DNA from: an uncultured Maribacter sp.
GTDB taxonomy: Bacteria > Bacteroidota > Bacteroidia > Flavobacteriales > Flavobacteriaceae
Length of the DNA stretch: 64,000 nucleotides
Direction of reading: 5' to 3'
NCBI RefSeq assembly: GCF_947496775.1
Contig: NZ_CANMDU010000002.1
Location: 1-64,000 of the forward strand
Shown: positions 1,619 through 43,440 of the stretch, in pieces
Layout of the letters: each line of letters opens with the position of its first letter
Position numbering within the stretch: position 1 is the first letter of the stretch
Position numbers and translations under genes: made by a program
The notes under the pieces: generated by a model
Database searches by the model: none
What the model saw: only the letters and a program-made list of their open reading frames with translations
What the model was told of the DNA's origin: nothing

Positions 1619-3751
1619 TTATTCTAACTCTAAATATTTTTCCATAATGGTTATTGCAGCTTCAGAAATTACAGTGCCAGGGCCAAAAATTGCCACTACT
1701 TTGCGTTCTAATAAATAGTCATAATCTTGGGCAGGAATTACCCCTCCGGCAAAGACCATAATATCTGGTCTTCCTAATTTTTCTAATTCTTTTATTAATT
1801 GCGGAATTAAAGTTTTATGACCAGCAGCTAAGCTAGATGCTCCAACAAAATGAACATCATTTTCTATGGCTTGTTTTGCTACTTCTTCTGGAGTTTGGAA
1901 TAAGGGTCCCATATCTACATCAAAACCTAAATCGGCAAAACTAGAGGCTATAACTTTTGCTCCTCTATCGTGCCCATCTTGTCCCATTTTGGCAATCATT
2001 ACACGAGGTCTACGACCTTCTATTTCGGCAAATTGATCTGCCAGTTTCTGAGCTTTTACAAATGTACTATCGTTATCTACTTCTTTACTATACACGCCGC
2101 TTATTAATTTAGTATCTGCTTTATGTCTTCCAAAATGTACTTCTAAAGCATCGGATATTTCCCCTAATGTAGCAAAGTTTTCGGCAGCTTCCACAGCTAA
2201 TTCTAATAAATTGCCTTCTCCAGTTTCTGCACATTTAGATAAAGCGGCAATATTTGCATCTACTGTTGCTTGGTCTCTATCTTTTTTCATTTTATTTATC
2301 CGCGCAATCTGAGAATCTCTTACGGCGGTATTATCTACTTCTAATATTTCTATATTCGAAGGTTCATTTGTTTTAAATTTATTTACACCTACCAAAATAT
2401 CTTGACCAGAATCTAAACGGGCTTGCTTACGCGCCGAAGCTTCTTCAATACGCATTTTAGGAACACCAGTTTCTATGGCTTTAGCCATACCACCAAGTTC
2501 TTCTACTTCTTCAATAAGTTTCCAAGCTTTATCTGCTATTTCTTTGGTTAGGTATTCTACATAATAGGAACCAGCCCAAGGATCTACCGCTTTTGTAATT
2601 TGCGTTTCGTCCTGAATAAAAATCTGCGTATTACGAGCAATACGAGCAGAGAAATCTGTGGGTAAGGCAATAGCCTCATCTAAGGCATTGGTATGTAAGG
2701 ATTGCGTTCCTCCTAAACTAGCTGCCATAGCTTCGATACAAGTACGGGCTACATTATTAAAAGGGTCTTGTTCACTTAAACTCCAACCCGAAGTCTGACT
2801 ATGGGTACGCAATGCCATAGATTTTGGGTTTTGCGGATTAAATTGTTTTATAATTTTAGCCCAAAGCATACGAGCGGCGCGCATCTTGGCAATCTCCATA
2901 AAATGATTCATTCCTACGGCCCAGAAGAAAGATAATCTAGGAGCAAATTCATCTATTTTTAAACCAGATTTTAGTCCGGTTCTTATGTATTCCATACCGT
3001 CTGCCAAGGTATATGCTAATTCAATATCTGCTGTGGCACCAGCCTCTTGCATATGGTAGCCACTAATAGATATAGAGTTAAATTTGGGCATGTTTTTGGT
3101 AGTATAATCGAAAATATCTCCAATAATACGCATAGAAGGTAATGGTGGGTATATATAGGTGTTACGTACCATAAATTCTTTTAAAATATCATTCTGGATG
3201 GTACCAGAGAGTTTATCTAAAGCAACGCCTTGTTTTTTTGCTGCAGCTATATAAAAGGCCATAATAGGTAGCACAGCTCCATTCATAGTCATGGATACCG
3301 ACATTTTATCTAACGGAATTTGGTCAAATAAAACCTGCATATCTAAAATAGAATCTATAGCTACCCCTGCCTTACCAACATCACCAGTTACGCGTGGGTG
3401 ATCAGAATCGTAACCGCGGTGTGTAGCTAAATCAAAAGCAACAGAAAGTCCTTTTTGCCCTGCAGCTAAGTTTCTTCTGTAAAATGCGTTAGATTCTTCT
3501 GCGGTAGAAAATCCTGCATATTGGCGTACAGTCCATGGGCGCATGGCGTACATAGCGCTATATGGGCCTCTTAGAAAAGGAGGTACACCAGCAGCAAAGT
3601 TTAAATGTTCGGCATTTTTAATATCTTCCTTAGCAAAATGTTTCTTTACGGGAATTCCTTCTGGTGTGTTCCAAATAGTATCTTTTCCGGAAGCGATTTC
3701 CTTTTCTTCCGGTGCTGTATTTAATTTTAAATCTGAAAAATCGGGTCTCAT
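1619..3751 (-). CDS. mutB: methylmalonyl-CoA mutase, large (catalytic) subunit
   Basis: This is the adenosylcobalamin-dependent mutase that interconverts succinyl-CoA and (R)-methylmalonyl-CoA. The 710-residue length is normal for the catalytic subunit. The N-terminal TIM-barrel substrate domain contains the family stretch [18 protein letters not shown] (near residue 70) and TRTHSQTSG-like [13 protein letters not shown]. The C-terminal B12-binding domain has the DxHxxG motif (D592-G-H594-D-R-G), His594 being the expected lower cobalt ligand, with a GG motif in VFAGGVIP. Its ATG overlaps the stop of the small-subunit gene by 4 bases (ATGA), so the two are translationally coupled. It is the last gene of the operon, followed by a terminator. 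The chaperone MeaB is not in this window. Confidence 0.97.
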
Positions 3752-5571
3752 ACGGCTAATGGATTTAAGGTTTTCTGTATTTTATTTTGAACGCTTGCAA
3801 TGGTAATCAACACGTCGGAACGTAAATTAACGCAACCATCTAAACCGGCTTTAGTTAATTCTGATAATAATTCACCTGTAGGGTTACCAGCAATCAGTAG
3901 CACTTTGTCTTTATTTAGAATTCTAAAAGCTTGCACAAAAGAAACTGCTTTTTCTTCGTAGTCTTGGTCCGAACTGCATAGAACTACTACATGAGAATTA
4001 GACTTTGCACTTATTTCTGCGGCTTCTTCAGCACTTTCATAGCTTTTTTCTTGTTGTACATTATAACCGCTAACGCCCACAAAATCATAGGCAAATGCAG
4101 CTCTTGCCTTACGCATTGTTAAGTTTCCGAAACTTGCTAATTCTACAACAGGCCTAACTTTTGTTTGTTCTACCAGTTCTTCTGTTTTTTTACGCATAGC
4201 TTCAATTTCTAAAGAGGCTCTACGTGGTTTTAATGTTTTAGAATTACCTTCTGTATTGCCAGAAGATAATAGCTCAGAGGAAACTTTTTCCATAAGGTTT
4301 GGGTATTTATTTATACCTACCATTGGAAGCCGTCTTTGGCTAATTAGCTTAAGTTTATGTACTCTAATTTCTGCTATTTGTTCTTGTATTTTTTCTTTTT
4401 CAAAATTGCTAAAGAAACCACCTTCCGATTCTATGGATTGAAACAATTGTAACGCTTTTTCTGCTATAGCAAGGGTAGCTTCTTCTATATAGTAAGAACC
4501 ATCTACTGGGTTTGCTACTTTTCCGAAATAAGATTCTTCTTGTAAAATAGTGGTTATATTGCCAGCAATTCTACTAGAAAAGTCGGATACCTCATTAAAT
4601 TCTTTATCATAAGGATCTACTAAAACCCCATCTACATTACCTAGAATGGCAGACATACTTTCTGTAGTAGCTCTTAATAAGTTGGTGTGCGCATCTGTAA
4701 TAGATTTGCTCCAAATAGATGTTTTGGCAAGTACAGTATGTTTAAAGTCAGTTACTTGGTATTTTTTAGCTATTTCTTGAAGTAGGTTATTGAAGGCCCT
4801 AAATTTTCCGATTTCGATAAAGTATTCTAAACCAATAGCAAATCTAAAATTAAGATTCTCAAAAACTTCTTGAGGAGTAATTCCTTTTTCGGATAATTTA
4901 TCGATAACGAAAACCAAAGAATTTAAAGAATATGCAATTTCTTGTACTTGGTTGGCACCAGAATCTAAATACTCGCTTGCAGAAATGGTTAATGCTTTGT
5001 AATTAGGATATTTAGCAACTAGAGAAAATACTTCAGCGGCTTCTGTAAAAGCTTTTTTTCCAAATTCTCCTTTTGTGACGTATTTAGATATTAACTGTGT
5101 GTCTACAAACCCTGTAAGATTCTTTTTGTCTACTTTACTACTCTTAATAAAACTTTTAAAATGCTGAACAAAAGTCGCTGCATTTTTCTTTATAGTAAAG
5201 GAAATAGTAATTGTATTTAAATCTATATCTCTTAAAAGTCGGGAAGGAGACATATTTCCTTTTACTATAAAAAGAATACCATTATGCCCTTCTTTAATAG
5301 CTGCTAGAGCTAAAGCATTTCCTCTTTTTTCGGAGGAAACATAAATGCTTCTGTAATTAACTAAAGAAGGAGAGTTTTCTCCCGTATTTTTTAGGTATTC
5401 CTTATGGTCTTCCGTATTATAAAATGGCTGAATATTGATTTTGTTTAAGTTTTTCCAAACTAATTTTTTATCAAAATCAGCACCTTTTAAATCTGCGGTA
5501 ACTCGCTCCATCCATTTCTCCTTGGAAACGGGCTCAAAATCAGAAAAGAGCTTTTTATTTGTATTACTCAT
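3748..5571 (-). CDS. mutA: methylmalonyl-CoA mutase, small subunit
   Basis: This 607-residue protein is homologous to the catalytic subunit and forms the heterodimer partner. It keeps the barrel fold landmarks ([31 protein letters not shown], parallel to [12 protein letters not shown] in the large subunit). Its C-terminal cobalamin-type domain lacks the DxHxxG motif and reads [14 protein letters not shown] instead. This is the known state of small subunits, which do not bind B12, so it is a structural subunit and not a decayed enzyme. It lies 28 bases downstream of the CoA-transferase gene and overlaps mutB by 4 bases. Confidence 0.95.
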
Positions 5572-5599: not shown

Positions 5600-6889
5600 T
5601 TAGTTAACTATTTTGCTACTGCCAAATCTTTCGAAGATTGCTTTGTCTAATTCCTCTCTATGATCGGGGTGTGCAATATCTCTTAAAGATAGTGCTCTTT
5701 GCTTTAAAGTTTTGCCAAATAATTCTGCGACTCCATACTCTGTGGCAACAAATCTGGCATGCGCACGGGTGGTAACAACTCCGGCACCTGGTTTAAGTGC
5801 TGGTACAATTTTAGAAACCCCTTTATGTGTTGTAGAGGTAACAGCGATTATTGGTTTTCCTCCCTCGGAAAGGGCGGCACCACGCATAAAATCCATTTGC
5901 CCACCAACACCAGAGAACATTCTAGTTCCTATAGAATCAGCGCATACTTGACCCGTAAAATCTATTTCTATAGCAGAGTTTATTGCCGTTACTTTTGGAT
6001 TTTGGCGAATAATGGCGGTATCGTTTACATAGGCAATATCTAGCATTTCAATTTCAGGATTATCATCCATAAAATCGTATAAACGTCTAGTCCCCATTGC
6101 AAAACCTGAAATAATTTTATAAGGATTTACTTTCTTTTTGGCACCATTTACTATTCCTTTTTCAACTAAATCTACAATTCCTTCAGAGAACATTTCGGTA
6201 TGTATTCCTAAATCTTTATGGTTATGCAAATATGTTAATACGGCATTAGGAATTCCACCAATTCCCATTTGTAATGTAGAACCATCTTCTATAATACCAG
6301 CTATGTTTTTACCAATTGCTTCTTCTTCGGCTGAAGGTGCAACGAATTTCATTTCATGAATTTCTTCGTCTACAAGAACACAAGCATCAAACTTGTTTAA
6401 ATGTACTATGGCGTCTCCAAAAGTTCTTGGCATTTTTGGATTTATTTGCGCAATTACTTTTTTCCCTCTTTCTATAGCAGAAATAACTATATCTACAGAA
6501 ATGCCTAAAGAACAGAAACCATGTTTGTCTGGGGGCGCTACGTTTACCAAAACAACATCTAAGTCCATATACCCTTGACGGAAAAGACTTGGAATATCAC
6601 TTAAAAAAATAGGAATATAATCTACGGTGTTACCAACCATTTTTCTGACATTGCCACCAATAAAAAAAGCACTGGTTCTAAAGCTATCTTTTAAAGAAGG
6701 GTCTGTATAACCGCATTCTCCCTCAGTGTGTAAATGAACAATTTCTACCCCTTTTAATTGAGGGCCGCGTTTTACCATTGCTCTAATTAGAGTCTGTGGT
6801 GTAGCAGAACCTCCTTGGATCAACACTCTATTCCCGGATTTTATAAATTTTACAGCCTCATCAGCTGACATTACATTTGGTATTTTCAT
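5600..6889 (-). CDS. acetyl-CoA hydrolase/transferase family CoA-transferase
   Basis: This 429-residue protein belongs to the acetyl-CoA hydrolase/4-hydroxybutyrate CoA-transferase family. Visible hallmarks are the N-terminal GGSATPQTLIRAM segment, the central GIGGIPNAVL glycine loop followed by HTEMFSEGIVDL with the likely catalytic Glu, and the C-terminal GVGGQMDFMRGAALSEGGKP segment. Family members move CoA between short-chain acids. Between a methylmalonyl-CoA mutase and a methylmalonyl-CoA decarboxylase, the natural inferred role is propionyl-CoA:succinate CoA transfer, closing the succinate-to-propionate cycle. Acetate or 4-hydroxybutyrate as partner cannot be excluded from sequence alone. 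Confidence 0.88.
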   Translation of the reverse strand: MKIPNVMSADEAVKFIKSGNRVLIQGGSATPQTLIRAMVKRGPQLKGVEIVHLHTEGECGYTDPSLKDSFRTSAFFIGGNVRKMVGNTVDYIPIFLSDIPSLFRQGYMDLDVVLVNVAPPDKHGFCSLGISVDIVISAIERGKKVIAQINPKMPRTFGDAIVHLNKFDACVLVDEEIHEMKFVAPSAEEEAIGKNIAGIIEDGSTLQMGIGGIPNAVLTYLHNHKDLGIHTEMFSEGIVDLVEKGIVNGAKKKVNPYKIISGFAMGTRRLYDFMDDNPEIEMLDIAYVNDTAIIRQNPKVTAINSAIEIDFTGQVCADSIGTRMFSGVGGQMDFMRGAALSEGGKPIIAVTSTTHKGVSKIVPALKPGAGVVTTRAHARFVATEYGVAELFGKTLKQRALSLRDIAHPDHREELDKAIFERFGSSKIVN

Positions 6890-6931: not shown

Positions 6932-8254
6932 TTATCCTAAGAAACTTAAAATGATACCCGCTGCTATTGCAGAGCCAATAACTCCCGATACGTTTGGTGC
7001 CATGGCGTGCATTAGTAAATAGTTAGATGGATCCGATTTTAAGGCCTCCGCATGAACAACTCTAGCACTATCTGGTACTGCAGATACCCCTGCTGCACCT
7101 ATTAATGGGTTTATTTTGTTATTTCCTTTTAGAAAAAGATTCATAAACTTGGCGAATAATAAACCTCCCATTGTTGCTATAACAAAGGATATAGCTCCTA
7201 GTCCAAAGATTAGCATAGAATCTTTAGTTATAAATATATCCGCTTGGGTAGATGCCCCTACAGTTACTCCCAATAATATGGTAACTATATCAATTAATTT
7301 GGTCCGGGCAGTATCTGCTAAACGTTCCGTTCTACCAGATTCTTTTAGTAAGTTACCAAAGAATAACATACCTAATAGGGGTAAAGCACTTGGTGATATA
7401 AAGGTAGTTAGTAGTAACGCTACAACGGGGAAAATCATTTTCTCTTTCTGAGAAACCGCTCTTGGTGGTTTCATTTTAATTTTACGATCTTCTTTATTGA
7501 CTAATAAACGCATTAATGGAGGTTGAATTACAGGAACTAATGCCATATAGGAATAAGCTGCAATAGCAATAGGACCAATAAGATTCTTAACTGTGGTTCC
7601 ATCGGGAAGGAGATTAACGCCATTGGCAAGTTTAGAAGAAAGAAAAATTGCTGTAGGGCCATCTGCACCGCCAATAATACCAATAGCCCCTGCTTCTGGT
7701 AGGTTAAACCCTAAATATAAAGCCCCTAAAAAAGTAGCAAATACACCTATCTGAGCAGCAGCCCCTAATAGCATTAATTTAGGGTTTGCGATAAGAGAAG
7801 AAAAATCGGTCATGGCACCAATACCCAAAAATATTAAAGGTGGATATATGCCTTTTACCACACCAAAATACAAATAGTTAAATACAGAACCAGCCTCATA
7901 TATACCTGTTTGATTTCCAGGAACAAATGGAATGTTACCTAAAATAACACCTGCACCTATTGGAATTAGCAATAGGGGCTCGTAATCGTATTTTATTCCA
8001 AGATAAATAAAGATAATTCCTATAAGAATCATAATTATATTTCCCCATTTGGCATTAGCAAAACCTGTGTAATGGTAAAATTGGTTTATGCCTTTAAAAG
8101 CATCGGAGTAAAAAGCCTCTTCGTCTGCTTTCGGCGTATTGGTAACTGTAACAGAAGTGTTATTAAAATCTGGACTTATAGTAGTACTGAAAAGTAATGG
8201 TCTTACAAATAATAGAACAGAAAGAACACTAAAAAGAATTATTAATTTTTTCAT
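6932..8254 (-). CDS. Na+-translocating decarboxylase, beta subunit (membrane pump)
   Basis: This 440-residue polytopic membrane protein is the OadB/MmdB/GcdB subunit. It decarboxylates carboxybiotin and couples this to outward Na+ transport. It shows many hydrophobic helices and the conserved GGADGPTAIF segment, whose Asp is essential in characterised homologues, plus the conserved GVSAVPDSARV and MAPNVSGVIGSAIAAG motifs near the C-terminus. An N-terminal extension with one membrane segment (about residues 1-25) and a polar stretch precede the core; such extensions are common in Bacteroidota homologues. The neighbouring biotin, OadG-like and carboxyltransferase genes complete the complex. Confidence 0.93.
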   Translation of the reverse strand: MKKLIILFSVLSVLLFVRPLLFSTTISPDFNNTSVTVTNTPKADEEAFYSDAFKGINQFYHYTGFANAKWGNIIMILIGIIFIYLGIKYDYEPLLLIPIGAGVILGNIPFVPGNQTGIYEAGSVFNYLYFGVVKGIYPPLIFLGIGAMTDFSSLIANPKLMLLGAAAQIGVFATFLGALYLGFNLPEAGAIGIIGGADGPTAIFLSSKLANGVNLLPDGTTVKNLIGPIAIAAYSYMALVPVIQPPLMRLLVNKEDRKIKMKPPRAVSQKEKMIFPVVALLLTTFISPSALPLLGMLFFGNLLKESGRTERLADTARTKLIDIVTILLGVTVGASTQADIFITKDSMLIFGLGAISFVIATMGGLLFAKFMNLFLKGNNKINPLIGAAGVSAVPDSARVVHAEALKSDPSNYLLMHAMAPNVSGVIGSAIAAGIILSFLG

Positions 8255-8315: not shown

Positions 8316-8735
8316 TTATTCTAGTTCTATCAGTATCTCATTTTGTAATACCTGTTGCCCAACGGCTATATTTAAAGTAGTTACCGTACCAGCTTTTTCT
8401 GCGACAATATTGTTTTCCATTTTCATAGCTTCTAAAATTAGAAGAGAGTCGCCCACTTTAATAACATCTCCTACTTTAATATTTAGGCTAAGTATTGTTC
8501 CAGGAATAGGGGCTACAATTTTAGTTTTAGAAGAAGTAGGGTTTACTTTAATTGGCTCTGCGGGTCTTTTAGAAGCTGCACGCACGAGAGTAGGGGTTTT
8601 TTTAGTTTTTACCTCTTTGGCCATTTCTACTGTATAGGAAGTTCCATTTACTTCTAATGCAATTTTGTTGTTTTCTTGAGATACAATTTTAACCTTGTAA
8701 CTGTTTTGGTTTATTTTAAAGTCAAAGTTTTTCAT
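8316..8735 (-). CDS. biotin carboxyl carrier subunit of the decarboxylase
   Basis: This 139-residue acetyl/propionyl-CoA carboxylase-type biotin carrier holds the CO2 moved from methylmalonyl-CoA to the membrane pump. The C-terminal biotinyl domain (about residues 70-139) contains the classic EAMKM motif with the biotinylated Lys105. The N-terminal 45 residues form a small beta-rich domain and are joined by a Pro/Lys-rich, flexible linker (about 46-70), as in the gamma/C subunits of Na+-pumping decarboxylases. It lies between the beta and delta subunit genes. Confidence 0.93.
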   Translation of the reverse strand: MKNFDFKINQNSYKVKIVSQENNKIALEVNGTSYTVEMAKEVKTKKTPTLVRAASKRPAEPIKVNPTSSKTKIVAPIPGTILSLNIKVGDVIKVGDSLLILEAMKMENNIVAEKAGTVTTLNIAVGQQVLQNEILIELE

Positions 8736-8763: not shown

Positions 8764-8776
8764 CTCGAAAATCGAG
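8764..8776. repeat. small REP-like dyad in the operon
   Basis: A perfect 5-bp inverted repeat with a 3-base loop (ctcgaaaatcgag) lies between the biotin-carrier and OadG-like genes. The sequence that follows (agattcaaatgttgcgagg) resembles part of the larger repeat at 17472 read on the opposite strand. Possibly a fragment of a dispersed repeat family. Confidence 0.35.
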
Positions 8777-8797
8777 ATTCAAATGTTGCGAGGTATT

Positions 8798-9160
8798 TTA
8801 CTTTATTCTATTTTGAATACCATATATTTTAGAACTCCATGGAGAGTATAACTTTCTTGCTTGTTTAATGGTTAAGACTGCATTCTCATTATCATGCTGT
8901 TCATTTAAATACATATGTAGTGCTAGAGATATGGCTGCGGCTATTTCACCGGTAAACTCTTTATCTGCTTCTACTTTAATATCTTTTATCTTTTTCTCTC
9001 TTCCTTTAGTTATAATCTTATATAGATATAGCATAACGGGCAACCCGTGCTGAAAAAACAGAGAGAGTGTTAAAAGGGCACAGAATACAATTACTAATCC
9101 AGTAATTAGTATAGTATAGCCTTGGCTCATTTGGTCTGTAAATAGTAATATGTTTGCCAT
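8798..9160 (-). CDS. OadG-family small membrane subunit of the decarboxylase
   Basis: This 120-residue protein has one N-terminal membrane helix (GYTILITGLVIVFCALLTL, about residues 14-33) and a charged cytoplasmic tail ending in LYSPWSSKIYGIQNR. That architecture is typical of OadG/MmdD subunits, which hold the carboxyltransferase and membrane parts of Na+-pumping decarboxylases together. The family is short and poorly conserved, so the call leans on context: its ATG shares one base with the stop of the carboxyltransferase gene (TAATG), and the biotin carrier follows. Confidence 0.85.
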   Translation of the reverse strand: MANILLFTDQMSQGYTILITGLVIVFCALLTLSLFFQHGLPVMLYLYKIITKGREKKIKDIKVEADKEFTGEIAAAISLALHMYLNEQHDNENAVLTIKQARKLYSPWSSKIYGIQNRIK

Positions 9161-10719
9161 TATAGTGGAATATTAGAGTGTTTTTTGGGTGGGTTAATTT
9201 CTTTCTTATTGCTAAGTAGTTCTAGAGCTCTAACAATTCTGAATCTTGTGTTTCTTGGCTCAATAACATCATCAATAAATCCGTATTTAGCAGCTACATA
9301 TGGATTAGCGAATTTGGTGTTATACTCTCCTTCTTTTTTCTCAATATACTCTTGTTTTTCATCGGCATCTTCTATTTTTCTAATAGCAGAACCTTCTAGC
9401 ACTTCCACAGCTCCTTTAGCACCCATAACTGCTATTTCTGCGGTTGGCCATGCGTAGTTTAAATCTCCACGAAGTTGCTTACAACTCATTACATCATGAG
9501 CCCCGCCATAAGACTTACGAAGTGTAATTGTTACTTTAGGAACTGTAGCCTCTCCATAAGCAAATAAGAGTTTTGCTCCGTGTAGAATTATCCCTGCGTA
9601 TTCTTGACCAGTACCGGGTAAAAACCCTGGTACATCTACAAGTGTTACTAGAGGAATATTAAAGGCATCGCAAAAACGAACAAAACGAGCAGCTTTTCTA
9701 GAGGCTTCACAATCTAGAACACCAGCGAAATATTTAGGTTGGTTCGCTACAATTCCCACAGGATGACCATTAAAACGAGCAAAACCTACAGTAATATTAC
9801 GCGCATAATTTCTATGTACTTCAGTGAATTCTCCATTATCTGTAATAACAGAAATAACATCAACAATATCATAAGGTTGGTTCGGGTTTTCTGGTATAAT
9901 TTCATTCAAAACATCATCCAACCTATCAATAGGGTCAGAACACGTAATGCTTGGTGGCTCTTCTAAGTTATTACTTGGTAAGTAACTCATTAATTTTCTT
10001 ACCAGAAGAAGGTTTTCTTCGTCATTCTCTGCTAAAAAGTGAGATACACCAGATTTTGTAGAGTGAATATTTGCACCACCAAGTTGTTCTGTGGTAACAA
10101 CCTCTCCTGTAACCGATTTAACCACTTTTGGTCCGGTTACGAACATATAACTTGTTTGGTCTGTCATGATTGTAAAATCGGTCAAAGCTGGCGAATAAAC
10201 AGCACCACCAGCACAAGGACCTAAAATGGAAGATATTTGTGGAATAACCCCAGAAGCCATTATATTACGTTGAAAAATTTCGGCATACCCTGCTAAAGAA
10301 CGAACTCCTTCTTGTATACGAGCGCCTCCACTGTCATTAAGACCAATAACGGGGGCACCAACTTTCATGGCCATATCCATTATTTTACAAATTTTTAAGG
10401 CGTATGTTTCTGATAATGACCCTCCGAATACTGTGAAATCTTGAGAGAATACATAAACTATTCTACCATCTATGGTACCATGCCCCGTAACCACTCCATC
10501 GGAAAGAAAAACTTGCTTATCTAATCCAAAAGATTTGGTTCTGTGAGTTACGAACATATCAAACTCTTCAAAACTATCTTCATCTAAAAGAATACTAATA
10601 CGCTCACGTGCGGTTAACTTTCCTTTAGAGTGCTGAGAATCTATTCTTTTTTCACCGCCGCCGAGTTTTGCTTTAGCTCTTTTTTCAATGAGTTCGTTAA
10701 TTTTATCTTGATTTGCCAT
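9160..10719 (-). CDS. mmdA: methylmalonyl-CoA decarboxylase alpha / acyl-CoA carboxyltransferase
   Basis: This 519-residue protein is the biotin-dependent carboxyltransferase that transfers the carboxyl group between methylmalonyl-CoA and the biotin carrier. Two crotonase-like halves are visible. The N half has [12 protein letters not shown] and [16 protein letters not shown], the C half [14 protein letters not shown] and [11 protein letters not shown], with the GGA and PG-type oxyanion segments of the family. Length matches MmdA/PccB. Because it is followed by OadG-, biotin- and OadB-type genes and no biotin carboxylase is nearby, decarboxylation with Na+ pumping is favoured over ATP-driven propionyl-CoA carboxylation. 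A second role with a distant biotin carboxylase is possible. Confidence 0.94.
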
Positions 10720-10757
10720 CGTAGTATATATGGGTTACTTGCTTATTAAAAGAGGCG

Positions 10758-11168
10758 TTATTGTTTGGATTTTGAGCATAATTCGGTAAGAACTCCTAAG
10801 GTAGATTTTGGGTGTAGAAAACCTATATCTAATCCTTCGGCTCCTTTTCTAGAGACTTTATCTATTAATTGAACACCTCTTTCTTCTGCTACTTGTAATG
10901 CTTTTGTAGCATTTTCTACAGCAAATGCTATATGATGAATTCCTTGCCCTTTTTTTGCTATGAATTTGCCAATAGGTCCGTCTGGAGAAGTGCTTTCTAA
11001 AAGTTCAATTTTTGTAGACCCTACCATGAAAAAGGCTGTTTTTACTTTTTGATCAACAACCTCTTCAATAGAATAACAAGTAAGGCCTAATACTTTTTCA
11101 TAATATGCAATAGACTCTTCTAAATTGTCTACTGCTATTCCTAGGTGTTCAATATGAGATATGTTCAT
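10758..11168 (-). CDS. mce: methylmalonyl-CoA epimerase
   Basis: This 136-residue vicinal-oxygen-chelate protein interconverts (R)- and (S)-methylmalonyl-CoA, linking the mutase (R form) with the decarboxylase (S form). Two beta-alpha-beta-beta-beta modules are visible. Expected metal ligands are His8 (HIEHLGIAV), His79 (GIHHIAFAV) and Glu129 (GVLTELC). It is the first gene of the operon, 38 bases before mmdA, so its upstream region is likely the operon promoter. Confidence 0.95.
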   Translation of the reverse strand: MNISHIEHLGIAVDNLEESIAYYEKVLGLTCYSIEEVVDQKVKTAFFMVGSTKIELLESTSPDGPIGKFIAKKGQGIHHIAFAVENATKALQVAEERGVQLIDKVSRKGAEGLDIGFLHPKSTLGVLTELCSKSKQ

Positions 11169-11214: not shown

Positions 11215-11258
11215 CAAAATTAGAAGTAAGCCGTTCTGGGTTATATGACAGAAGTCAT
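11215..11258 (-). promoter_or_regulatory. predicted Crp/Fnr-activated promoter of the propionate operon
   Basis: On the minus strand a perfect inverted repeat, ATGACTTCTGTCAT (11258-11245, half sites TGA-N6-TCA), is followed by a consensus Bacteroidota -7 box TAATTTTG (11222-11215). The centre of the repeat lies 29.5 bases before the first T of the box, which places it at about -41.5 from the expected start. No clear -33 TTG is needed if an activator binds there. The same arrangement and exact spacing precede pflB. Which regulator binds is inference. Confidence 0.65.
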
Positions 11259-32123: not shown

Positions 32124-32175
32124 TTTTATTTAGATTTTTAGATTAAAGAGTCAAGAATTAAGATTTTATTGTGAT

Positions 32176-32409: not shown

Positions 32410-32411
32410 TC

Positions 32412-33602: not shown

Positions 33603-33700
33603 TTTTTTTGCTTTTGGCTACTAGCTTTTGGCTATTAGCAATATGTTGTTTTTTAAAATGTGCCAACAGCTAATAGCTAATGGCAAATAGCTTCATAATT
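33603..33700. repeat. short tandem/inverted 'TAGCTATTAGC' repeat
   Basis: The spacer contains repeated units of the form ggctactagc, ggctattagc, agctaatagc, ggcaaatagc. The two halves are inverted relative to each other and can fold into a long imperfect hairpin around the AT-rich middle (atgttgttttttaaaatg). This type of low-complexity repeat is often seen near four-helix-bundle genes in Bacteroidota, and a remnant of such a gene lies on the other side of the thiolase gene. Confidence 0.5.
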
Positions 33701-36106
33701 TTAATTACGTAGAGGTTTTCCTGTCTTTAACATATGTTGTATACGCTCTAAAGTTTTACGTTCGGTACATAGAGATAAGAAAGCTTCTCTTTCTAAGTCT
33801 AATAAATACTGTTCGTTTACTCTAGTAGGTTCCGATAAATCTCCACCAGCCATTACATAAGCTAACTTATTAGCAATTTTCTTGTCGTGTTCACTGATAT
33901 AGTGACTAGCTTCCATGGAGTCTGTTCCTACTAAGAACATCCCAAGAGCTTGTTTTCCTAAAACTTTTATGTCTTTACGCTTTACTGGCCTTGTGTAACC
34001 AGATTCTGCCATTAGTTTAGCATGAGCCTTAGCAGTTGCTATTTGGCGGTCTTTGTTTACTACAACAATATCTTTTCCTTTTTCAAGAATACCTAAATCA
34101 TACGCTTCATAAGCTGAGGTAGATACTTTTGCCATACCAATAGTTAAAAAATACTCTTGAAGAACGTTAAGTTCTACATCTCCTTTACTAAATAAATCAG
34201 AAGCTCTAACTGCAAATTCTTTAGAACCACCACCACCAGGAATAACGCCAACACCAAATTCTACTAGTCCAATGTACGTTTCTGCTGCGGCAACAACTTT
34301 GTCTGCATGAAGTGAAAGTTCGCAACCACCACCAAGTGTCATACCATGAGGAGCAGATATAGTTGGGATAGAGGAGTAGCGCATACGCATCATAGTATCT
34401 TGAAACATTTTAATAGCCATATTTAGCTCATCATACTCTTGCTCTACCGCCATCATGAAAATCATTCCAATATTGGCTCCAACAGAGAAATTTGCGGCTT
34501 GGTTACCAACTACTAAACCTTGAAAATCTTTTTCGGCTAAATCTATACCTTTATTAAGTCCGGCTAAAACATCACCACCAATGGTGTTCATTTTAGATTG
34601 GAATTCTACATTTAGAATACCATCTCCTAAATCTTCAATTACAACACCACTATTTTTAAATACTTCTTTAGTTTTTCTAATATTATCTAATAGGATAAAA
34701 GCATCTTGCCCAGGAACTTTTTTCATAGATTTCGATGGAATATCATAGAAAAAAGTAGCGCCATCGGTAACGGAATAAAAATTGGATATTCCTACAGATT
34801 TCATATCTGTTACCCAAGAAGCAACTTCTAAGCCTTCTGTTTTAGCAAATTCTATTCCCTTATCCAAACCAACGGCATCCCAGATTTGGAAAGGACCATG
34901 TTCCCAACCAAAACCAGCTTTCATAGCATCATCAATCTTGTAAAGCTCATCAGTAATTTCTGGAATTCTATGCGATACATAAGCAAATAAGGCTCCAAAA
35001 CTTTTACGGTAAAACTCACCAGCTTTATCTTTTCCTGCAGTAAGAACAGAAAATCTGTCTACTACTTTGTCAATAGTTTTAGTAAGCTCAAGTGTAGCGA
35101 ATTTTGCTCTTTTTTTAGCACGATAATCCATCGTATCTAAGTCTAAAGTCAAAATTTCACTTTTCCCATTATCTCCTTTTACTTTTTTGTAAAAGCCTTG
35201 ACCAGATTTGCTCCCTAACCATTTGTTTTCCATCATAGTATCGATGAAATCTGGAAGTTTAAATAAATCTAAGCGTTCATCTTCTTTACAATTTTCGTGT
35301 ATACCATTAGCAACGTGAACAAGTGTATCTAAACCAACAACATCTACAGTTCTAAAAGTGGCAGATTTTGGTCTTCCTATTACAGGACCAGTTAATTTAT
35401 CTACCTCTTCTACAGTCATTCCCATATCTTTAACAGAGTGGAATAAACTTTGGATACTAAAAATACCAATACGGTTACCAATGAATGCTGGAGTGTCTTT
35501 TGCTATTACAGATGTTTTTCCTAAAAACTGTTCGCCATAACTATTTAAGAATTCTAATACCTCTGGGGAAGTTTTAGGTCCTGGAATTATTTCAAATAAT
35601 TTTAAGTAACGAGCAGGATTAAAAAAGTGAGTTCCGCAGAAATGTTTTTGAAAATCATCACTACGCCCTTCACTCATAAACTTAATTGGAATACCTGAAG
35701 TATTTGAAGATATTAAGGTTCCGGGGGTTCTATGCTTTTCGATATTCTCGAAAACCATTTTTTTAATATCTAAGCGTTCAACAACAACTTCTATAATCCA
35801 ATCTACCTTAGCAATTTTAGCAATATCATCTTCTAAGTTACCAGTAGTAATTCTACTAGCAAATTTCTGATTATATATAGGTGAAGGTTTCGATTTTAAT
35901 GATGCAGTAAGCGAGTTATTTACCAAACGGTTTCTTACTACTTTGTCTTCTAAAGTAAGCCCTTTTGCTTTTTCTTTATCATTTAGTTCTCTAGGAACAA
36001 TATCTAATAACAAAACTTCTACTCCAATATTGGCAAAATGGCATGCTATTCCGCTTCCCATTATACCAGAACCAATGACGGCAACTTTATTAATATGCTT
36101 GTTCAT
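33701..36106 (-). CDS. fused 3-hydroxyacyl-CoA dehydrogenase/enoyl-CoA hydratase
   Basis: This 801-residue enzyme carries out beta-oxidation steps two and three. The NAD-binding Rossmann motif is at the N-terminus (VAVIGSGIMGSGIACHFA), followed by the dehydrogenase signature GTHFFNPARYLKLFEI and a C-terminal helical domain. Residues about 490-720 are a crotonase domain with the oxyanion segment APHGMTLGGGCELSLHAD. The order (dehydrogenase first) is opposite to E. coli FadB and is the usual Bacteroidota form. It lies 10 bases downstream of the MarR regulator. Confidence 0.94.
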   Translation of the reverse strand: MNKHINKVAVIGSGIMGSGIACHFANIGVEVLLLDIVPRELNDKEKAKGLTLEDKVVRNRLVNNSLTASLKSKPSPIYNQKFASRITTGNLEDDIAKIAKVDWIIEVVVERLDIKKMVFENIEKHRTPGTLISSNTSGIPIKFMSEGRSDDFQKHFCGTHFFNPARYLKLFEIIPGPKTSPEVLEFLNSYGEQFLGKTSVIAKDTPAFIGNRIGIFSIQSLFHSVKDMGMTVEEVDKLTGPVIGRPKSATFRTVDVVGLDTLVHVANGIHENCKEDERLDLFKLPDFIDTMMENKWLGSKSGQGFYKKVKGDNGKSEILTLDLDTMDYRAKKRAKFATLELTKTIDKVVDRFSVLTAGKDKAGEFYRKSFGALFAYVSHRIPEITDELYKIDDAMKAGFGWEHGPFQIWDAVGLDKGIEFAKTEGLEVASWVTDMKSVGISNFYSVTDGATFFYDIPSKSMKKVPGQDAFILLDNIRKTKEVFKNSGVVIEDLGDGILNVEFQSKMNTIGGDVLAGLNKGIDLAEKDFQGLVVGNQAANFSVGANIGMIFMMAVEQEYDELNMAIKMFQDTMMRMRYSSIPTISAPHGMTLGGGCELSLHADKVVAAAETYIGLVEFGVGVIPGGGGSKEFAVRASDLFSKGDVELNVLQEYFLTIGMAKVSTSAYEAYDLGILEKGKDIVVVNKDRQIATAKAHAKLMAESGYTRPVKRKDIKVLGKQALGMFLVGTDSMEASHYISEHDKKIANKLAYVMAGGDLSEPTRVNEQYLLDLEREAFLSLCTERKTLERIQHMLKTGKPLRN

Positions 36107-36116
36107 TAAATTACTA

Positions 36117-36572
36117 TTATTTATTAATGTTATTATCTTTTGTGTAGACTTTTTTGTCTGCTATAAGCTTGTTAATAGTTTCGGTTACTTCAAAAAAGTT
36201 TTTTAATTGTTCTTCGGTAACATTATTTTTAACGGCTTCATTGAAACGTAAAACCACACTTTTAGAATCTTCTCTTTTTTCCAGACCAAAATCAGTTAAA
36301 TGTATTAAAACACCTCTTCCGTCGTTTGGATTAGGTTTACGTTTAATTAGTCCTTTTTCTTCCATACTTTTTAGTATTCTAGAAAGACTTGTCGCTTCCA
36401 TACCCATTTTAGGGCCTAGAGCAGTAGAGGGAGTTCCTGTTTTTGGATCTATACTTAAAAGAGTAAAACCGACTGCCATAGTAGTGCCAAATTCTTTAGC
36501 CTCTTCATTGTACATTTTGGTCACAGCTTGCCAAGTGGCACGTAGTGCATAATCTATGGTTATTTCCTTCAT
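36117..36572 (-). CDS. MarR-family transcriptional regulator of the beta-oxidation operon
   Basis: This is a winged-helix regulator of about 151 residues. I chose the ATG at 36572 (MKEITIDYALRATWQAV): a further in-frame ATG at 36617 lies inside a perfect palindrome and upstream of a predicted -7 box, so it cannot be used from that promoter. The DNA-binding region shows GPKMGMEATSLSRILKSMEEKGLIKRKPNPNDGRGVL (split by eye into recognition helix and wing; quoted parts are LSRILKSMEEKG and NPNDGRG). It is the first gene of the operon and probably represses it until an acyl-CoA or fatty acid binds; the ligand is inference. Confidence 0.85.
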   Translation of the reverse strand: MKEITIDYALRATWQAVTKMYNEEAKEFGTTMAVGFTLLSIDPKTGTPSTALGPKMGMEATSLSRILKSMEEKGLIKRKPNPNDGRGVLIHLTDFGLEKREDSKSVVLRFNEAVKNNVTEEQLKNFFEVTETINKLIADKKVYTKDNNINK

Positions 36573-36590
36573 ATAAATTGTATAGGAAAC

Positions 36591-36598
36591 CAAATATA
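36591..36598 (-). promoter_or_regulatory. predicted -7 box of the MarR/beta-oxidation operon
   Basis: TATATTTG on the minus strand fits TAnnTTTG, with the expected start about 12 bases before the ATG at 36572. The palindrome at 36601-36632 covers the spacer and -33 region. Confidence 0.6.
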
Positions 36599-36600
36599 AA

Positions 36601-36632
36601 GAAAATTTATTATGCATGCATAATAAATTTTC
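36601..36632. promoter_or_regulatory. perfect 32-bp palindromic operator
   Basis: The half site GAAAATTTATTATGCA is followed directly by its exact reverse complement, giving 16+16 bp with no mismatch. It sits two bases upstream of a TAnnTTTG box, immediately before the MarR gene. Position and symmetry fit a MarR-dimer operator (self-regulation). It could in addition affect transcription leaving the acyl-CoA ligase gene upstream. Confidence 0.75.
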
Positions 36633-36678
36633 AAAAAAATAGATGTAAATGTGTATTAGGTTGTTGTATTACAATAAA

Positions 36679-38451
36679 TTAATGCCCATAAATATCATTG
36701 TACAGGGCTTTATACTTTTCTTTTATTATTTTTCTTTTAAGTTTAAGGGTAGGGGTTACATGTCCTTCTTCAATACTCCAAACATCAGGGGTTAGTCTAA
36801 ATTGTTTTACTTTCTCCCATTTTGCAAAGTCTTCGTTTGCTAAATCAATTTCTTCTTGAATACGGTCTATAAGTTTTTGATTCGAAATAATTTCTTCATT
36901 ACTCTCCAATGCTAAGTGGTGTAATTTTGCCCATTCTCGAATGAATTCGAAATTTGGCTGAATTAAAGCAGCGGGCATTTTTTCACCTTCACCAACTACC
37001 ATTAGTTGTTCAATGAATCTAGATTGCTTGAATCTGTTTTCTAATAATTGAGGTGCCACATATTTTCCGCCAGATGTTTTAAACATCTCTTTTTTACGAT
37101 CCGTAATTTTTAGGAATCCATTTTCATCAATCTCCCCAATGTCACCTGTATGAAAATACCCATCAATAATTACTGTGGCGGTTTTTTCAGGATCTTTGTA
37201 ATACCCCATCATAACTTGCGGTCCCTTTACGCATATTTCACCATCATCGGCTATTTTAACTTCTGTACGACCAATTAATTTACCAACGCTGGTAATTTTG
37301 AATCCATTTTTTCGCATATCATTTACAGAAATTACAGGAGATGTTTCCGTAAGTCCGTAACCTTCCATAACTCCAAATTCAGCGGCATTGTAAATTCTTG
37401 CTAATCTAGGTTGTAGTGCAGCGCTACCAGAAGCAATAAGATTTAAATGGCCTCCTAGGGCTTCTTTCCATTTGCTAAAAATTAATTTACGGGCAAGGGC
37501 GAGTTTTTTCTCGTACCACCAACCATTCTGTCCGTAAGGTTCATATTTTAACCCAACCTCTACAGCCCAAAAGAAAATCATTTTTTTAATTCCTTTTAAG
37601 GCAGCACCTTTAGCAATAATACTATCATAGACCTTTTCTAAAAGTCTAGGAACAGCAGTCATTACATGTGGTTGTACTTCTTTAAGATTGTCACTAATCT
37701 TATCCATAGCTTCCGCATAGTAAATAGATACACCTCTATATTGGTATAAATAAATTAACATACGTTCGTAGATATGGCATAAAGGTAAAAAGCTTAAGGA
37801 TCTAGTTTTTCCATCTTCTATAGGGAATCTTGCGGAGCTTTCTATGGCATTACTCACTACATTTTCATGAGACAGCATAACACCTTTGGGTTTACCAGTT
37901 GTACCAGAGGTATATATAAGCGTAGCTAAATCTTCAGCTTTTACATTATTCTTTAATTTTTCAACTTCTTCCTGATTACTAGTATCCGCACCTAATTCTA
38001 TAACTTCATTCCAATTTTTACAATCCGATAAGTTATCAAAAGAATATACTTCTTTTAAATGAGGGGTTTTGCTTTTAACCGCTTTTACTTTTTTGAATAC
38101 CTCGTCACAGGATACAAAACAATACTTCGCTTCCGAATGATTTAGCACATAGGTATAATCTTCTTCGGATATTGTTGGGTATATAGGTACATTTTGTGCT
38201 CCCAATTGTAAAACACCAACGTCCATTATATTCCATTCCGTTCTATTAGTTAAAGAGATTATTGCAACTTTATCATTAGGTTGTACACCAAGTTTTAAAA
38301 GCCCTCTACTAATAGCGTTTGCTTTGCTTAGGTACTCTTTTGTTGAAGTATAAATCCATTCTCCATTTTGTTTAGAAACGAGGGATTTTTCTAAATTAAA
38401 TTTTTCTAATTGATAATAAGGGAAGTCAAAGAGACGGGTTATTTTTTGCAT
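36679..38451 (-). CDS. long-chain acyl-CoA synthetase (AMP-forming)
   Basis: This 590-residue adenylate-forming enzyme activates fatty acids with ATP and CoA, supplying the beta-oxidation genes downstream. The P-loop-like motif LIYTSGTTGKPKGVMLSHEN (about 180) and the A5/A8 motifs YGLTETSPVIS and GYFHTGDIGEIDENGFLKI are intact, as is the C-terminal GGKYVAPQLLEN. No signal peptide. It is upstream of the MarR gene in the same direction but separated by the MarR operator, so it has its own promoter. Confidence 0.92.
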   Translation of the reverse strand: MQKITRLFDFPYYQLEKFNLEKSLVSKQNGEWIYTSTKEYLSKANAISRGLLKLGVQPNDKVAIISLTNRTEWNIMDVGVLQLGAQNVPIYPTISEEDYTYVLNHSEAKYCFVSCDEVFKKVKAVKSKTPHLKEVYSFDNLSDCKNWNEVIELGADTSNQEEVEKLKNNVKAEDLATLIYTSGTTGKPKGVMLSHENVVSNAIESSARFPIEDGKTRSLSFLPLCHIYERMLIYLYQYRGVSIYYAEAMDKISDNLKEVQPHVMTAVPRLLEKVYDSIIAKGAALKGIKKMIFFWAVEVGLKYEPYGQNGWWYEKKLALARKLIFSKWKEALGGHLNLIASGSAALQPRLARIYNAAEFGVMEGYGLTETSPVISVNDMRKNGFKITSVGKLIGRTEVKIADDGEICVKGPQVMMGYYKDPEKTATVIIDGYFHTGDIGEIDENGFLKITDRKKEMFKTSGGKYVAPQLLENRFKQSRFIEQLMVVGEGEKMPAALIQPNFEFIREWAKLHHLALESNEEIISNQKLIDRIQEEIDLANEDFAKWEKVKQFRLTPDVWSIEEGHVTPTLKLKRKIIKEKYKALYNDIYGH

Positions 38452-38795
38452 ACTAAGTTTCTGATAAGTAATTGCAAAGTAAGAAAAGGGAATGGGATTT
38501 TAAAATGAGATTGTTAAAATTCTATACTTTTTTTTAGTAATTATTGAAAATTAACACATTTTATAAAGATTTTAAATTCATTAAATAGTTAAGAAGGTTG
38601 TTTCTGTAAGAGAGTAGTACAGTTGCTCTCCTTTTTAATGTTATTTCCGCAAACGTTTTCATTAAAGCAGAAACTTAAATCCTTAATTTTTATTGCGTTA
38701 ACTGATAAATGTCAGGTTTCTAAAAATGGCTCTTGTTTACCTTTGTTGAATCAAAATATACATAGATTATTACATAATATTAATAAAGCTAAATA
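38452..38795. other. 344-base divergent regulatory region
   Basis: This gap separates the divergent acyl-CoA synthetase and pflB genes. It holds the predicted Crp/Fnr site and -7 box of pflB (38702-38745) and a weak plus-strand stem-loop with T run (gagag/ctctc, 38610-38636). No coding frame is seen. Confidence 0.6.
38702..38745 (+). promoter_or_regulatory. predicted Crp/Fnr-activated promoter of pflB
   Basis: The dyad CTGATAAATGTCAG (38702-38715; TGA-N6-TCA) is centred 29.5 bases before the first T of TACCTTTG (38738-38745), a consensus -7 box. This puts the dyad at about -41.5, the class II activator position. The expected start is about 38750, leaving a leader of about 45 bases. The arrangement is identical in spacing to that upstream of the propionate operon. 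Confidence 0.68.
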
Positions 38796-41131: not shown

Positions 41132-41854
41132 GTGCACTCCATAGAATCTTTCGGAACTCATGATGGTCCAGGAATTCGTATGGTTGTTTTTTTACAAGGG
41201 TGCAAGTTAAAATGCCTGTATTGTCATAACCCAGATTCTATTGAAACCTCTGGAGGTATAGAGTATCCTATTGAGGATTTGGTACAAAAGGCCATAAAAT
41301 TAAAGTCATATTTTGGAAAAAAAGGAGGAGTTACTGTTTCCGGAGGGGAGCCTTTATTGCAATCCAAAGAGTTAATTACATTTTTTAAAAGATTAAAGGA
41401 AGAGGGGATTCATACAAATATTGATACTAATGGTAGAATACTGAATCATTTTTCTAAAGATTTATTAGATGATTATGCAGATTTAATTATGCTAGATATT
41501 AAGCATATGACCGAAGATGGCTATCAATTCATAACAGGAAAACCAAATAAAGAAATTTCTTTTAGTCTGGCTAAATATAGAGAAGACTCAGGAAAAAAAA
41601 TGTGGTTGCGGTATGTATTAATTCCAGGTATTACAAATAAACCTGAATTATTACACGCCTTAGGAGAGCATTTTAAAAATTATAAAACCATTGAAAAAAT
41701 AGAATTACAGCCTTACCATAAGTTAGGAGTACATAAATGGGACGCTTTAGGATGGGATTATAAACTTAAAGATACACGAGAAAATACAAAAGAAGAGCTA
41801 GAAGCTGCGTCGGTAATTTTAGATAAATATTTTAGAGAAGTAAAAATTAATTAA
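41132..41854 (+). CDS. pflA: pyruvate formate-lyase activating enzyme
   Basis: This radical SAM enzyme places the glycyl radical on PflB. The iron-sulfur motif CxxxCxxC is C-KLK-C-LY-C, preceded by the family start HSIESFGTHDGPGIRMVVF. The SAM motifs VTVSGGEPLLQ and the late LRYVLIPGITN are present. The start is GTG at 41132; no ATG, GTG or TTG lies in frame between the pflB end and this codon. E. coli PflA has seven residues before the equivalent His, so translation may begin earlier at ATC (41105) or ATA (41123). It is 110 bases after pflB. Confidence 0.92.
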   Translation: MHSIESFGTHDGPGIRMVVFLQGCKLKCLYCHNPDSIETSGGIEYPIEDLVQKAIKLKSYFGKKGGVTVSGGEPLLQSKELITFFKRLKEEGIHTNIDTNGRILNHFSKDLLDDYADLIMLDIKHMTEDGYQFITGKPNKEISFSLAKYREDSGKKMWLRYVLIPGITNKPELLHALGEHFKNYKTIEKIELQPYHKLGVHKWDALGWDYKLKDTRENTKEELEAASVILDKYFREVKIN

Positions 41855-41937: not shown

Positions 41938-43440
41938 ATGAAAAGTTATAAAGAAGAGCATAAGCCAGCGTCAGAGTTTGCTAGTCGATCCGAATATTTA
42001 GACCACGAGTTGCAAATAATGAAACCTAGAAGATATAGACTAAACCTTCCAGGAAGAGATTTTAAATTTGAATGGGAAGATTTAGTACCAGCGCTAGCAG
42101 GGACACTTGGTATTATAGCTATGTATTCTTCTGTAATGATGGCTTGGGCAGATGGATTAACAGAGGCGTGGGACCATATTACATTAGGAAAAGAATTTGC
42201 CATTGAGGTTTCTCGAGTAGAGATGCTAATCCCAGCTCTGTTGTTTGTTATTTTGGCTTCTGGATTTTTTAATCCACGGGCAAATTTAGCAGGAAACCAT
42301 GGTCCTATGATTCCTCTTATTGCTAGTATAGCTTTAGCAGGAGCTCATCCTCTGGCTTTGGCAATATTAATAGGTGTTTTTGGGCTTTTGCTTAGCCTTT
42401 TTAAAGGAGGGTCTCGTTTGGTAAACTTAACAAGTAAAGGGGTTGCTGGCGGATTATTAATTTTTTTGGGATTTTCAGGGGCCTTGACTCAAATTAAGAC
42501 TATCCAGACATGGAGTATGGGACTTAGCTCAACAACTGTAGAAGCGGGTTCAATGGGGTATCTTGGCTTAACTATTTTAGGCGTTACCGTGGTTTTGTAC
42601 AGTTACCTCGCTAGAATTAAAAAGCGTTGGTTAGCTATTCCTTCCTGTGCAATTACGGCCTTAGTTGTAGCATTAATTGGTGGAGCTAGTTTTGATCTTC
42701 AGTTTACCACTGAAATGGGTTTGCCAAATCTAAACCCTTTATATTGGTGGGGAAGTACAGATAAAGGTTGGATGCTTGGGCTTCCGAATTTACAACATTT
42801 TATAGCTTCTTTACCTTTTGCAATTTTAGCGGTAGCCATGTGGTCTCCAGACTTTTTAGGACACCGTATTTTTCAGGAAATGAATTATCCTAAAAAAACT
42901 GAAAAAGTGCTAATGGATGTAGATGATACCATGACTATGTGTTCTATAAGACAAATGGTAGGAACTGCTGTGGGAGGAGGAAACATTACATCTTCTTGGG
43001 GTACATATATGATACCTGCGGCTATAGCAAAAAGACCCATCCCTGGGGGAGCTATTCTTTTGGGTATAATGGTTATGGTAGTGGCTATTTTAGGAACACC
43101 TATGGATGTAGCGGTGTGGCCACCAGTAAGAGCTATAGCATTATTAGTTGGGGTATTTTTGCCTATGATTGAAGCAGGTATTCAAATGGTTAAAGAGAGT
43201 TCATGTGCTCAAGCTGCTGGGATTTGCATTTTTGCGGCTATGGTAACAAATCCAGTATTGGCATGGGCATTAGCTATGTTTTTAGACAATAATGGGTTAA
43301 TTGGTGATAAAACACGGCCAAAAAATTTGTCCATGGTTGATCGATGGGTTATTCCTTTGGGTATATTAATTATTTGTATTGTAGCTATGCTTGCTGTAGG
43401 AATGTTAGAATCTAGTTATGGTATCTTGCCATATTTATAA
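41938..43440 (+). CDS. DUF3360-family membrane protein (putative transporter)
   Basis: This 500-residue protein has about 11-13 hydrophobic helices and resembles SulP/NCS2-type transporters without a STAS domain. The N-terminus (HKPASEFASRSEYLDHELQI, MKPRRYRLNLPGRDFKFE) and NPRANLAGNHGPMIPLI fit the DUF3360 family as I recall it, of unknown function. Acidic and polar residues within helices (NLAGNHGPM; VGGGNITSSWGTYMIPAAI) suggest a substrate path. It is 83 bases downstream of pflA in the same direction. Formate, pyruvate or another organic acid is a plausible cargo by context only. Confidence 0.78.
   Translation: MKSYKEEHKPASEFASRSEYLDHELQIMKPRRYRLNLPGRDFKFEWEDLVPALAGTLGIIAMYSSVMMAWADGLTEAWDHITLGKEFAIEVSRVEMLIPALLFVILASGFFNPRANLAGNHGPMIPLIASIALAGAHPLALAILIGVFGLLLSLFKGGSRLVNLTSKGVAGGLLIFLGFSGALTQIKTIQTWSMGLSSTTVEAGSMGYLGLTILGVTVVLYSYLARIKKRWLAIPSCAITALVVALIGGASFDLQFTTEMGLPNLNPLYWWGSTDKGWMLGLPNLQHFIASLPFAILAVAMWSPDFLGHRIFQEMNYPKKTEKVLMDVDDTMTMCSIRQMVGTAVGGGNITSSWGTYMIPAAIAKRPIPGGAILLGIMVMVVAILGTPMDVAVWPPVRAIALLVGVFLPMIEAGIQMVKESSCAQAAGICIFAAMVTNPVLAWALAMFLDNNGLIGDKTRPKNLSMVDRWVIPLGILIICIVAMLAVGMLESSYGILPYL

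Follow-up and report, generated by a model that had tools for sequence, protein, structure and literature searches.

A dyad and promoter box at fixed spacing upstream of pflB and a propionate operon in Maribacter: a probable FNR-like low-oxygen regulon of the Flavobacteriaceae

Described Crp/Fnr systems and the paired sites of the window

Low-oxygen activators of the FNR type are already known; what is new here lies in the details. At class II promoters, the CRP or FNR site is centred at about −41.5. The recognition helix of FNR has the form ExxSR, and its serine takes part in reading the first T of TTGAT. Both hemN and the cbb3 oxidase genes are FNR/ANR targets, as they are among the genes described below. 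The FNR and ANR systems of Proteobacteria thus resemble the present one in having a Crp/Fnr protein as the probable binder and a dyad centred at −41.5. They differ in the site, which is TTGAT-N4-ATCAA in their case and ATGAY-N4-RTCAT here, and in the promoter box, which is here of the Bacteroidetes type. In Pseudomonas, hemN and azu are assigned to the Anr core in the available part of PMC6588701.

Two further systems come from the Bacteroidetes or reach into them. The Crp-family factor of Bacteroides (BT4338, MalR/Cur) resembles the present case in that pflBA falls in its predicted regulon, according to the available part of PMC3878776; the same part gives its palindrome as TATGTTnTAnAACATA and its targets as mainly sugar-use genes, whereas the site here is ATGAY-N4-RTCAT. 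The HcpR and HcpR2 proteins are likewise Crp/Fnr factors found in anaerobes, including Bacteroides and Porphyromonas (PMC1274295, available in part). In those pages HcpR of some deltaproteobacteria and cyanobacteria uses TTGACnnnnGTCAA, with a T 5' of TGA where the regulon here has mostly A or C, and HcpR2 has the motif GTAACnnnnGTTAC, most of the Bacteroides regulons consisting of hcp only.

We analysed a 64,000-nucleotide stretch (hereafter the window) from the genome of an uncultured Maribacter sp., an assembly of 3.96 Mb in 69 contigs that is 99.8% complete. An earlier note on this DNA had claimed that pflB and a propionate operon share a TGA-N6-TCA dyad whose centre lies 29.5 bases before a TAnnTTTG box, and we confirmed this at both operons (38703-38745 and 11215-11257; Table 1). 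At pflB the distance from the dyad centre (38708.5) to the box start (38738) is 29.5 bases, corresponding to a 23-base spacer; the propionate operon, on the minus strand and 27.4 kb from the pflB site, reads TGACTTCTGTCA-N23-TAATTTTG. These were the only two matches in the window to the full pattern (TGA-N6-TCA, N23, TAnnTTTG). A mean of 0.01 matches was obtained in 100 shuffles of the window, none of which reached two, and the pattern with a 22-base gap had zero matches in the window; the true spacer is 23. The dyad alone was not enriched (12 seen, 15.9 expected), so the information lies in dyad, box and spacing together.

Other features of the window were also considered. An Rfam search at gathering thresholds had no match anywhere in the window, and a riboswitch at pflB or the propionate operon was rejected. 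We also rejected a role of the pflB dyad in a divergent promoter for the acyl-CoA ligase gene, as inspection by eye found no TAnnTTTG-like box 23 bases away on that side. The genes at 30318-38451, divergent from pflB, appear by eye to serve fatty-acid oxidation and have no matching box on their side. On the other flank, a DUF3360 membrane protein (895 bits) is encoded at 41938-43440, 3' of pflA and in the same direction, and possibly belongs to one unit with pflA.

Table 1. Genes and promoter elements of the pflB and propionate operons, in window coordinates.
Feature	Position	Strand	Basis
Dyad TGATAAATGTCA, proposed pflB activator site, centre −41.5	38703..38714	+	kept in relatives
TACCTTTG, −7 type promoter box (−12 to −5)	38738..38745	+	mapped Flavobacterium starts (PMC9723704, available in part)
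pflB, formate C-acetyltransferase, 741 aa	38796..41021	+	TIGR01255, 1118 bits, cut-off 994
pflA, pyruvate formate-lyase activase; start codon uncertain	41132..41854	+	TIGR02493, 274.7 bits, cut-off 231.75
Dyad TGACTTCTGTCA of the propionate operon	11246..11257	-	pattern match, kept in relatives
TAATTTTG, propionate operon promoter box, 23 bases past the dyad	11215..11222	-	pattern match
Methylmalonyl-CoA epimerase, propionate operon gene 1	10758..11168	-	TIGR03081, 143.9 bits, cut-off 114.95
mmdA-like, methylmalonyl-CoA decarboxylase alpha	9160..10719	-	TIGR01117, 793.7 bits, below cut-off 998.8
Biotin carrier subunit	8316..8735	-	NCBIfam biotin-carrier models, every listed one below cut-off
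Sodium-pumping decarboxylase beta subunit	6932..8254	-	PF03977; TIGR01109 over cut-off
CoA-transferase, substrate not settled	5600..6889	-	TIGR03948, 297 bits, below cut-off
Methylmalonyl-CoA mutase, both subunits	1619..5571	-	small 3748-5571 (TIGR00642 below cut-off); large 1619-3751 (NF006944 over cut-off)

Recurrence of the site and promoter geometry

The earlier note had attributed the shared arrangement to one regulon and proposed a genome scan, in which the pattern proved commoner than chance. The full pattern had 16 matches in the Maribacter genome against 2 for the reversed pattern, and a stricter dyad (TGAY-N4-RTCA) with the box had 15 against 0 in the control; both totals, 16 and 15, keep two sites (L001 and L015) that we did not count as targets. 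When spacers of 13–33 bases were allowed, exactly 23 bases was found in 15 of 22 matches, and the reversed control gave 8 over all spacers. Allowing one mismatch raised the count to 47 (control, 9), with TAnnTTTA as the box in 11 of the 32 added matches. We inspected 15 of these 32: ten were followed by a frame within 300 bases and lay outside long frames, three lay inside a frame and two had none.

Promoters of orthologous genes were then compared. For pflB, 581 relatives were confirmed in the GTDB collection, and for the best 80 of them 400 bases upstream were viewed (only 100 for L123). The exact dyad-23-box arrangement preceded 18 of the 31 genes classed as flavobacterial by record title (two Bacteroidia MAGs counted in); a further 2, from Lutibacter, had a spacer of 22, 4 had a box one base off at 23, and 7 had neither the exact nor a near arrangement. 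None of the 49 other promoters in the best 80, mostly from Bacteroidales, had the site. In 19 aligned pflB rows, including that of the window, the inner dyad letters (A at +4, T at +7, Y and R) were kept while most of the spacer varied; the outer dyad letters and the box are fixed in these rows by how the rows were selected.

The propionate promoters were chosen by the MmdA protein and not by the site. Here all 17 readable epimerase-mmdA promoters, from 13 genera, had the dyad followed after exactly 23 bases by a TAnnTTTG box. At E 1e-240 or better, mmdA occurred in 21 of 299 family genomes and was absent from the one other genome of the genus; besides the 17 with readable epimerase promoters, these 21 comprised one at a contig end and three without an exact site. 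In these last three the mmdA is more distant (75–82% identity), and the full flanks fetched had no exact site. Such a patchy occurrence of the propionate module (window 1619-11168) suggests gene transfer or repeated loss. These data give strong support to the claim of one regulon joining pflB with the propionate module, the same spacing being found genome-wide and kept in orthologous promoters. A chance arrangement in AT-rich DNA would fit the background frequency of the bare TGA-N6-TCA in the window, but it is refuted by the 17 of 17 epimerase-mmdA promoters together with the site counts and the spacing, and we give it practically no credence.

The pattern extended through the family. In 120 family genomes we counted 916 sites against 18 in the control, with at least one site in 107 genomes. 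A draw of 198 genomes from the phylum showed that site number drops with distance: 175 sites in 19 family genomes, 16 in 2 genomes of the same order, and 91 (reversed control, 7) in 28 genomes labelled as the same class, while 111 of the 149 genomes labelled as the same phylum had zero. The spacer was 23 bases in 73 of 140 rows from 10 family genomes, the runner-up being 22 bases with 9 rows (these are 140 of the 150 rows among the matches listed, from 10 of 15 genomes, with the 10 listed rows of G011 left aside).

Transcription starts mapped in Flavobacterium psychrophilum put TAnnTTTG at −12 to −5, in the available part of PMC9723704. With the box at that position in a relative, a dyad centred 29.5 bases 5' of it is centred at −41.5, which is where CRP and FNR bind at class II promoters. 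We examined the site further in a set of 97 sites from 11 of the 107 genomes with a match (G059, G027, G115, G044, G072, G034, G017, G107, G101, G082 and G036); left aside were G119 and G033, where the sites had a more mixed appearance, along with loci L032–L061 and the listed rows of G093, G058, G102, G026, G023 and G110. The extended site was AAnATGAYAwwTRTCATnTT, and the base 5' of TGA was A in 66 sites, C in 20, T in 8 and G in 3. Positions −33 to −31 were T-rich, with G at −31 in just 2 of the 97. An ordinary −33 element has TTG. This TTG is thus absent, so the promoter should need help, and activation is the natural reading. A Crp/Fnr-superfamily dimer would bind AAnATGAY-N4-RTCATnTT centred at −41.5, beside the usual place of the −33 element, and would there touch RNA polymerase held at TAnnTTTG. 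That the factor is instead a repressor, whose dyad over the −33 region blocks polymerase, is very improbable: the dyad does end at −36, beside the place of the −33 element, but a repressor would tolerate many positions whereas one spacing dominates here, and the −33 TTG is missing.

Genes downstream of the sites

In the Maribacter genome, exact sites were found 5' of the gene for the candidate regulator F1 described below, a HemN-like radical SAM gene, pta, a DeoC/LacD-type aldolase gene, the epimerase operon, pflB, a Thioredoxin_9 protein gene, hpf and usp. The site before bioB (L012), which has TGAG, is less clear as a member, as are two more of the 16 matches, the frame downstream of L013 having no Pfam match and L010 having no clear gene. 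One shared dyad had exact sites both ways, towards a periplasmic binding protein gene and towards a TonB-dependent receptor gene. A cut-off fragment of the receptor scores 55 bits with the TonB-B12 model, below the model threshold, and the transcript towards it carries a cobalamin riboswitch (104.9 bits; L008:1718-1942; contig C2, about 84.9 kb). The receptor gene is therefore likely under dual control, by a predicted regulon promoter and the riboswitch, and its likely role is B12 uptake. Because methylmalonyl-CoA mutase needs B12, the uptake and the use of B12 would be joined.

Near-exact sites with a 23-base spacer were found 5' of ccoI (box CACCTTTG, the dyad being common to F1) and 5' of ccoS-ccoN (box TATTTTTA), both boxes being one base off. 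Others preceded a nadA-like gene and the usp gene after F1, with gene names assigned partly by eye. Of the genes that the earlier note had expected in such a scan, the cbb3 oxidase was borne out, with ccoN hit family-wide and ccoN and ccoI near-exact in the genome itself; class III nrd was not, as none occurred among the annotated exact matches of this genome.

A different palindrome, TTGACrATAGTCAA, has the identical box spacing at L001 and L015, and adjoins an NmrA/SDR gene or follows a small Crp-like gene. Locus L228 has a palindrome of the same kind, TTGACCGTCGTCAA, at the box spacing of the regulon. These three loci probably form a separate local regulon with another regulator's site. At C3:284301-284629, tandem regulon-like sites (one exact, one TACCTTTA) stand before an open frame of 241 aa.

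Across the 97 family sites, Pfam and NCBIfam counts at E 1e-5 placed cytochrome c after 12, ccoN after 10, hemN after 10, usp after 9, Thioredoxin_9 after 6, hpf after 5, PFL after 4, and NadA, PTA and multicopper oxidase after 3 each, with two of the sites (L182 and L183) having one common downstream gene. Among frames of 60 aa or more that use any of three start codons and start within 350 bases, the longest was taken as the downstream gene; such a frame followed 97 of 97 sites, which under so loose a definition is a weak test, and it started 14–32 bases past the box in 40 of 97. The site thus recurs before anaerobic and microaerobic genes, as expected from the claim of one regulon, and the family-wide list of predicted targets resembles an FNR/ANR regulon. 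Under oxygen limitation F. psychrophilum strongly raises its cbb3 oxidase, and heme-synthesis enzymes also go up (PMC9723704, available in part). This induction, together with ccoN and hemN being among the commonest targets, supports oxygen as the signal. Neither Crp nor Fnr occurs in that paper's main text. Our literature search, whose coverage left most subscription journals outside, found no published description of this regulon for the family, in agreement with the earlier note.

It is also conceivable, though quite unlikely, that this is a carbon rather than an oxygen regulon, its regulator responding to carbon status as does the MalR/Cur-type Crp of Bacteroides. A meta-regulon study that used the Bacteroides motif placed Flavobacteriales CRP/FNR homologs in a MalR-like carbon-sensing group (PMC8510549, available in part), and pflBA belongs to the predicted Bacteroides Crp regulon in the part of PMC3878776 cited above. 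However, the Bacteroides motif TATGTTnTAnAACATA given there is another site, the 49 non-flavobacterial pflB loci had none of the sites described here, and sugar-use genes are not among the frequent targets, which comprise cbb3 oxidase, HemN, cytochromes and multicopper oxidases.

Candidate regulators and the low-oxygen reading

In the Maribacter genome, four genes score over the Pfam cut-off for a Crp-type HTH. One of them, F1 (C1:601768-602454), belongs to the Crp/Fnr superfamily (PF00027, 65 bits; PF13545, 55.1 bits; both over cut-off). It is divergent from the cbb3-assembly ATPase gene ccoI and, judged by the exact site 5' of it, is apparently autoregulated. Among the family's 30 best F1 loci, a ccoI-like gene was divergent in 29, and a TGA-N6-TCA dyad lay within 250 bases 5' of F1 in 27, with the exact box at 23 on the F1 side in 7.

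F1 aligns with FNR of crystal structures over residues 4–225, almost end to end. Its cysteines C5, C8, C54 and C107 were conserved in all 12 aligned F1 rows. Three of these (C5, C8, C107) match C20, C23 and C122 of the E. coli FNR set (C20, C23, C29, C122); Asn stands at the place of C29, and C54 is extra, falling on an FNR alanine. The recognition helix also departs from ExxSR. It is ExxIR, with E192, I195 and R196 invariant in 13 of 13 rows that were hand-picked from the F1-search loci, L275 and a second Crp/Fnr protein, F2. The change from Ser to I195 fits the change of the site to ATGAY. Since the cysteine set, the recognition motif and the site all differ, F1 should not be filed as FNR. 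The best PDB sequence match of F1 was 2gau, a Crp/Fnr family regulator presumably from Porphyromonas gingivalis, but that alignment begins at F1 residue 19 and leaves the N-terminal Cys pair of F1 unmatched. Elsewhere in the genome, tandem Crp-like genes (L019, L020; C1:669254-670702) adjoin a cytochrome bd oxidase gene, and one of the two has an ExxSR-type helix (SREVISR).

We compared the occurrence of F1 with site number in the 120 family genomes. Genomes with an F1 match (E 1e-15) had a mean of 8.9 sites (n = 101) and those without had 0.79 (n = 19, 13 of them zeros), a difference with p = 8.6e-11 that carries no correction for kinship and includes many small genomes in the no-match group. 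The larger, 99% complete no-match genomes G023, G039, G073, G086 and G087 had 1, 0, 0, 2 and 0 sites; G048, 82% complete, had 9 sites and no F1 match. With classes set by hand from E-values among the matches listed, F1-only genomes had a mean of 6.6 sites (n = 36), some having just 1–3, and genomes that lacked F1 and F2 but had other matches had a mean of 7.9 (n = 25), these others being of F3 type among the matches listed. Co-occurrence, neighbourhood and helix type support a Crp/Fnr protein as the binder.

F2 (C1:649840-650439) is a Crp/Fnr protein with four cysteines, arranged as C-x2-C-x4-C plus the C122-equivalent, and an E..IR helix; its gene adjoins MFS transporter and globin genes. It is possible, but unlikely, that F2 is the main binder, answering nitrogen oxides, with F1 in a secondary role. 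Its helix and four cysteines would suit this role, and the adjoining globin gene has a one-mismatch site upstream (L309). On the other hand, the 36 genomes with F1 and neither F2 nor another match average 6.6 sites, whereas F2 stands alone in one genome, with 3 sites, and it is F1, not F2, that is divergent from ccoI and has its own exact site.

In a third type, F3, a receiver domain is joined to the same Crp module; its gene adjoins one for a histidine kinase, and its helix has a form such as ATESLIR. At F3 loci (L269–L276), which lie mostly beside usp genes, a site with spacer 23 follows in 7 of 8, and the neighbouring kinase was of the PAS type in the one scanned. Through F3, the regulon promoters may receive a second input, from oxygen or redox state. 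As F2 and F3 share the E..IR helix, F1 need not be the sole binder. A wider reading, which we hold tentatively and at rather less than even odds, is that the Flavobacteriaceae have one low-oxygen promoter code read interchangeably by two kinds of sensor, a stand-alone FNR-like protein (C-x2-C-x45-C-x52-C) and a receiver-Crp protein with a PAS kinase, both of which have a recognition helix of the one TExxIR type. From lineage to lineage these sensors would be swapped or combined while the sites stay, and the patchy sodium-pumping propionate pathway would be wired in.

We hold with high confidence that the regulon is real. Our main reading, to which we give a probability of roughly 0.7, is that a family-wide FNR-like low-oxygen regulon includes both sites of the window as class II activator sites, with F1 as the likely binder. 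F1 is likely the main regulator in this genome, and we infer that the signal is likely oxygen, acting through a putative Fe-S cluster on the four conserved cysteines; F1 binding, activation and the oxygen response are predicted. At low oxygen, F1 would switch on pyruvate formate-lyase, phosphate acetyltransferase, the cbb3 oxidase and oxygen-independent heme synthesis. Jointly with these it would switch on the sodium-pumping succinate-to-propionate pathway with its B12 uptake, a universal stress protein and the ribosome hibernation factor.

Such a regulon would link genes for fermentation, propionate-making, heme and high-affinity respiration, most likely under one low-oxygen switch. If this is true, the oxygen circuit of the family gains a defined site with a fixed promoter geometry, as well as a candidate for its regulator and a list of targets, and FNR-type class II activation would be seen to work with the unusual Bacteroidetes promoter. 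The Flavobacteriaceae are a major marine and soil family, and the predictions would be directly testable in them. The production of propionate and formate would then be tied to oxygen in bacteria that are usually treated as aerobes.
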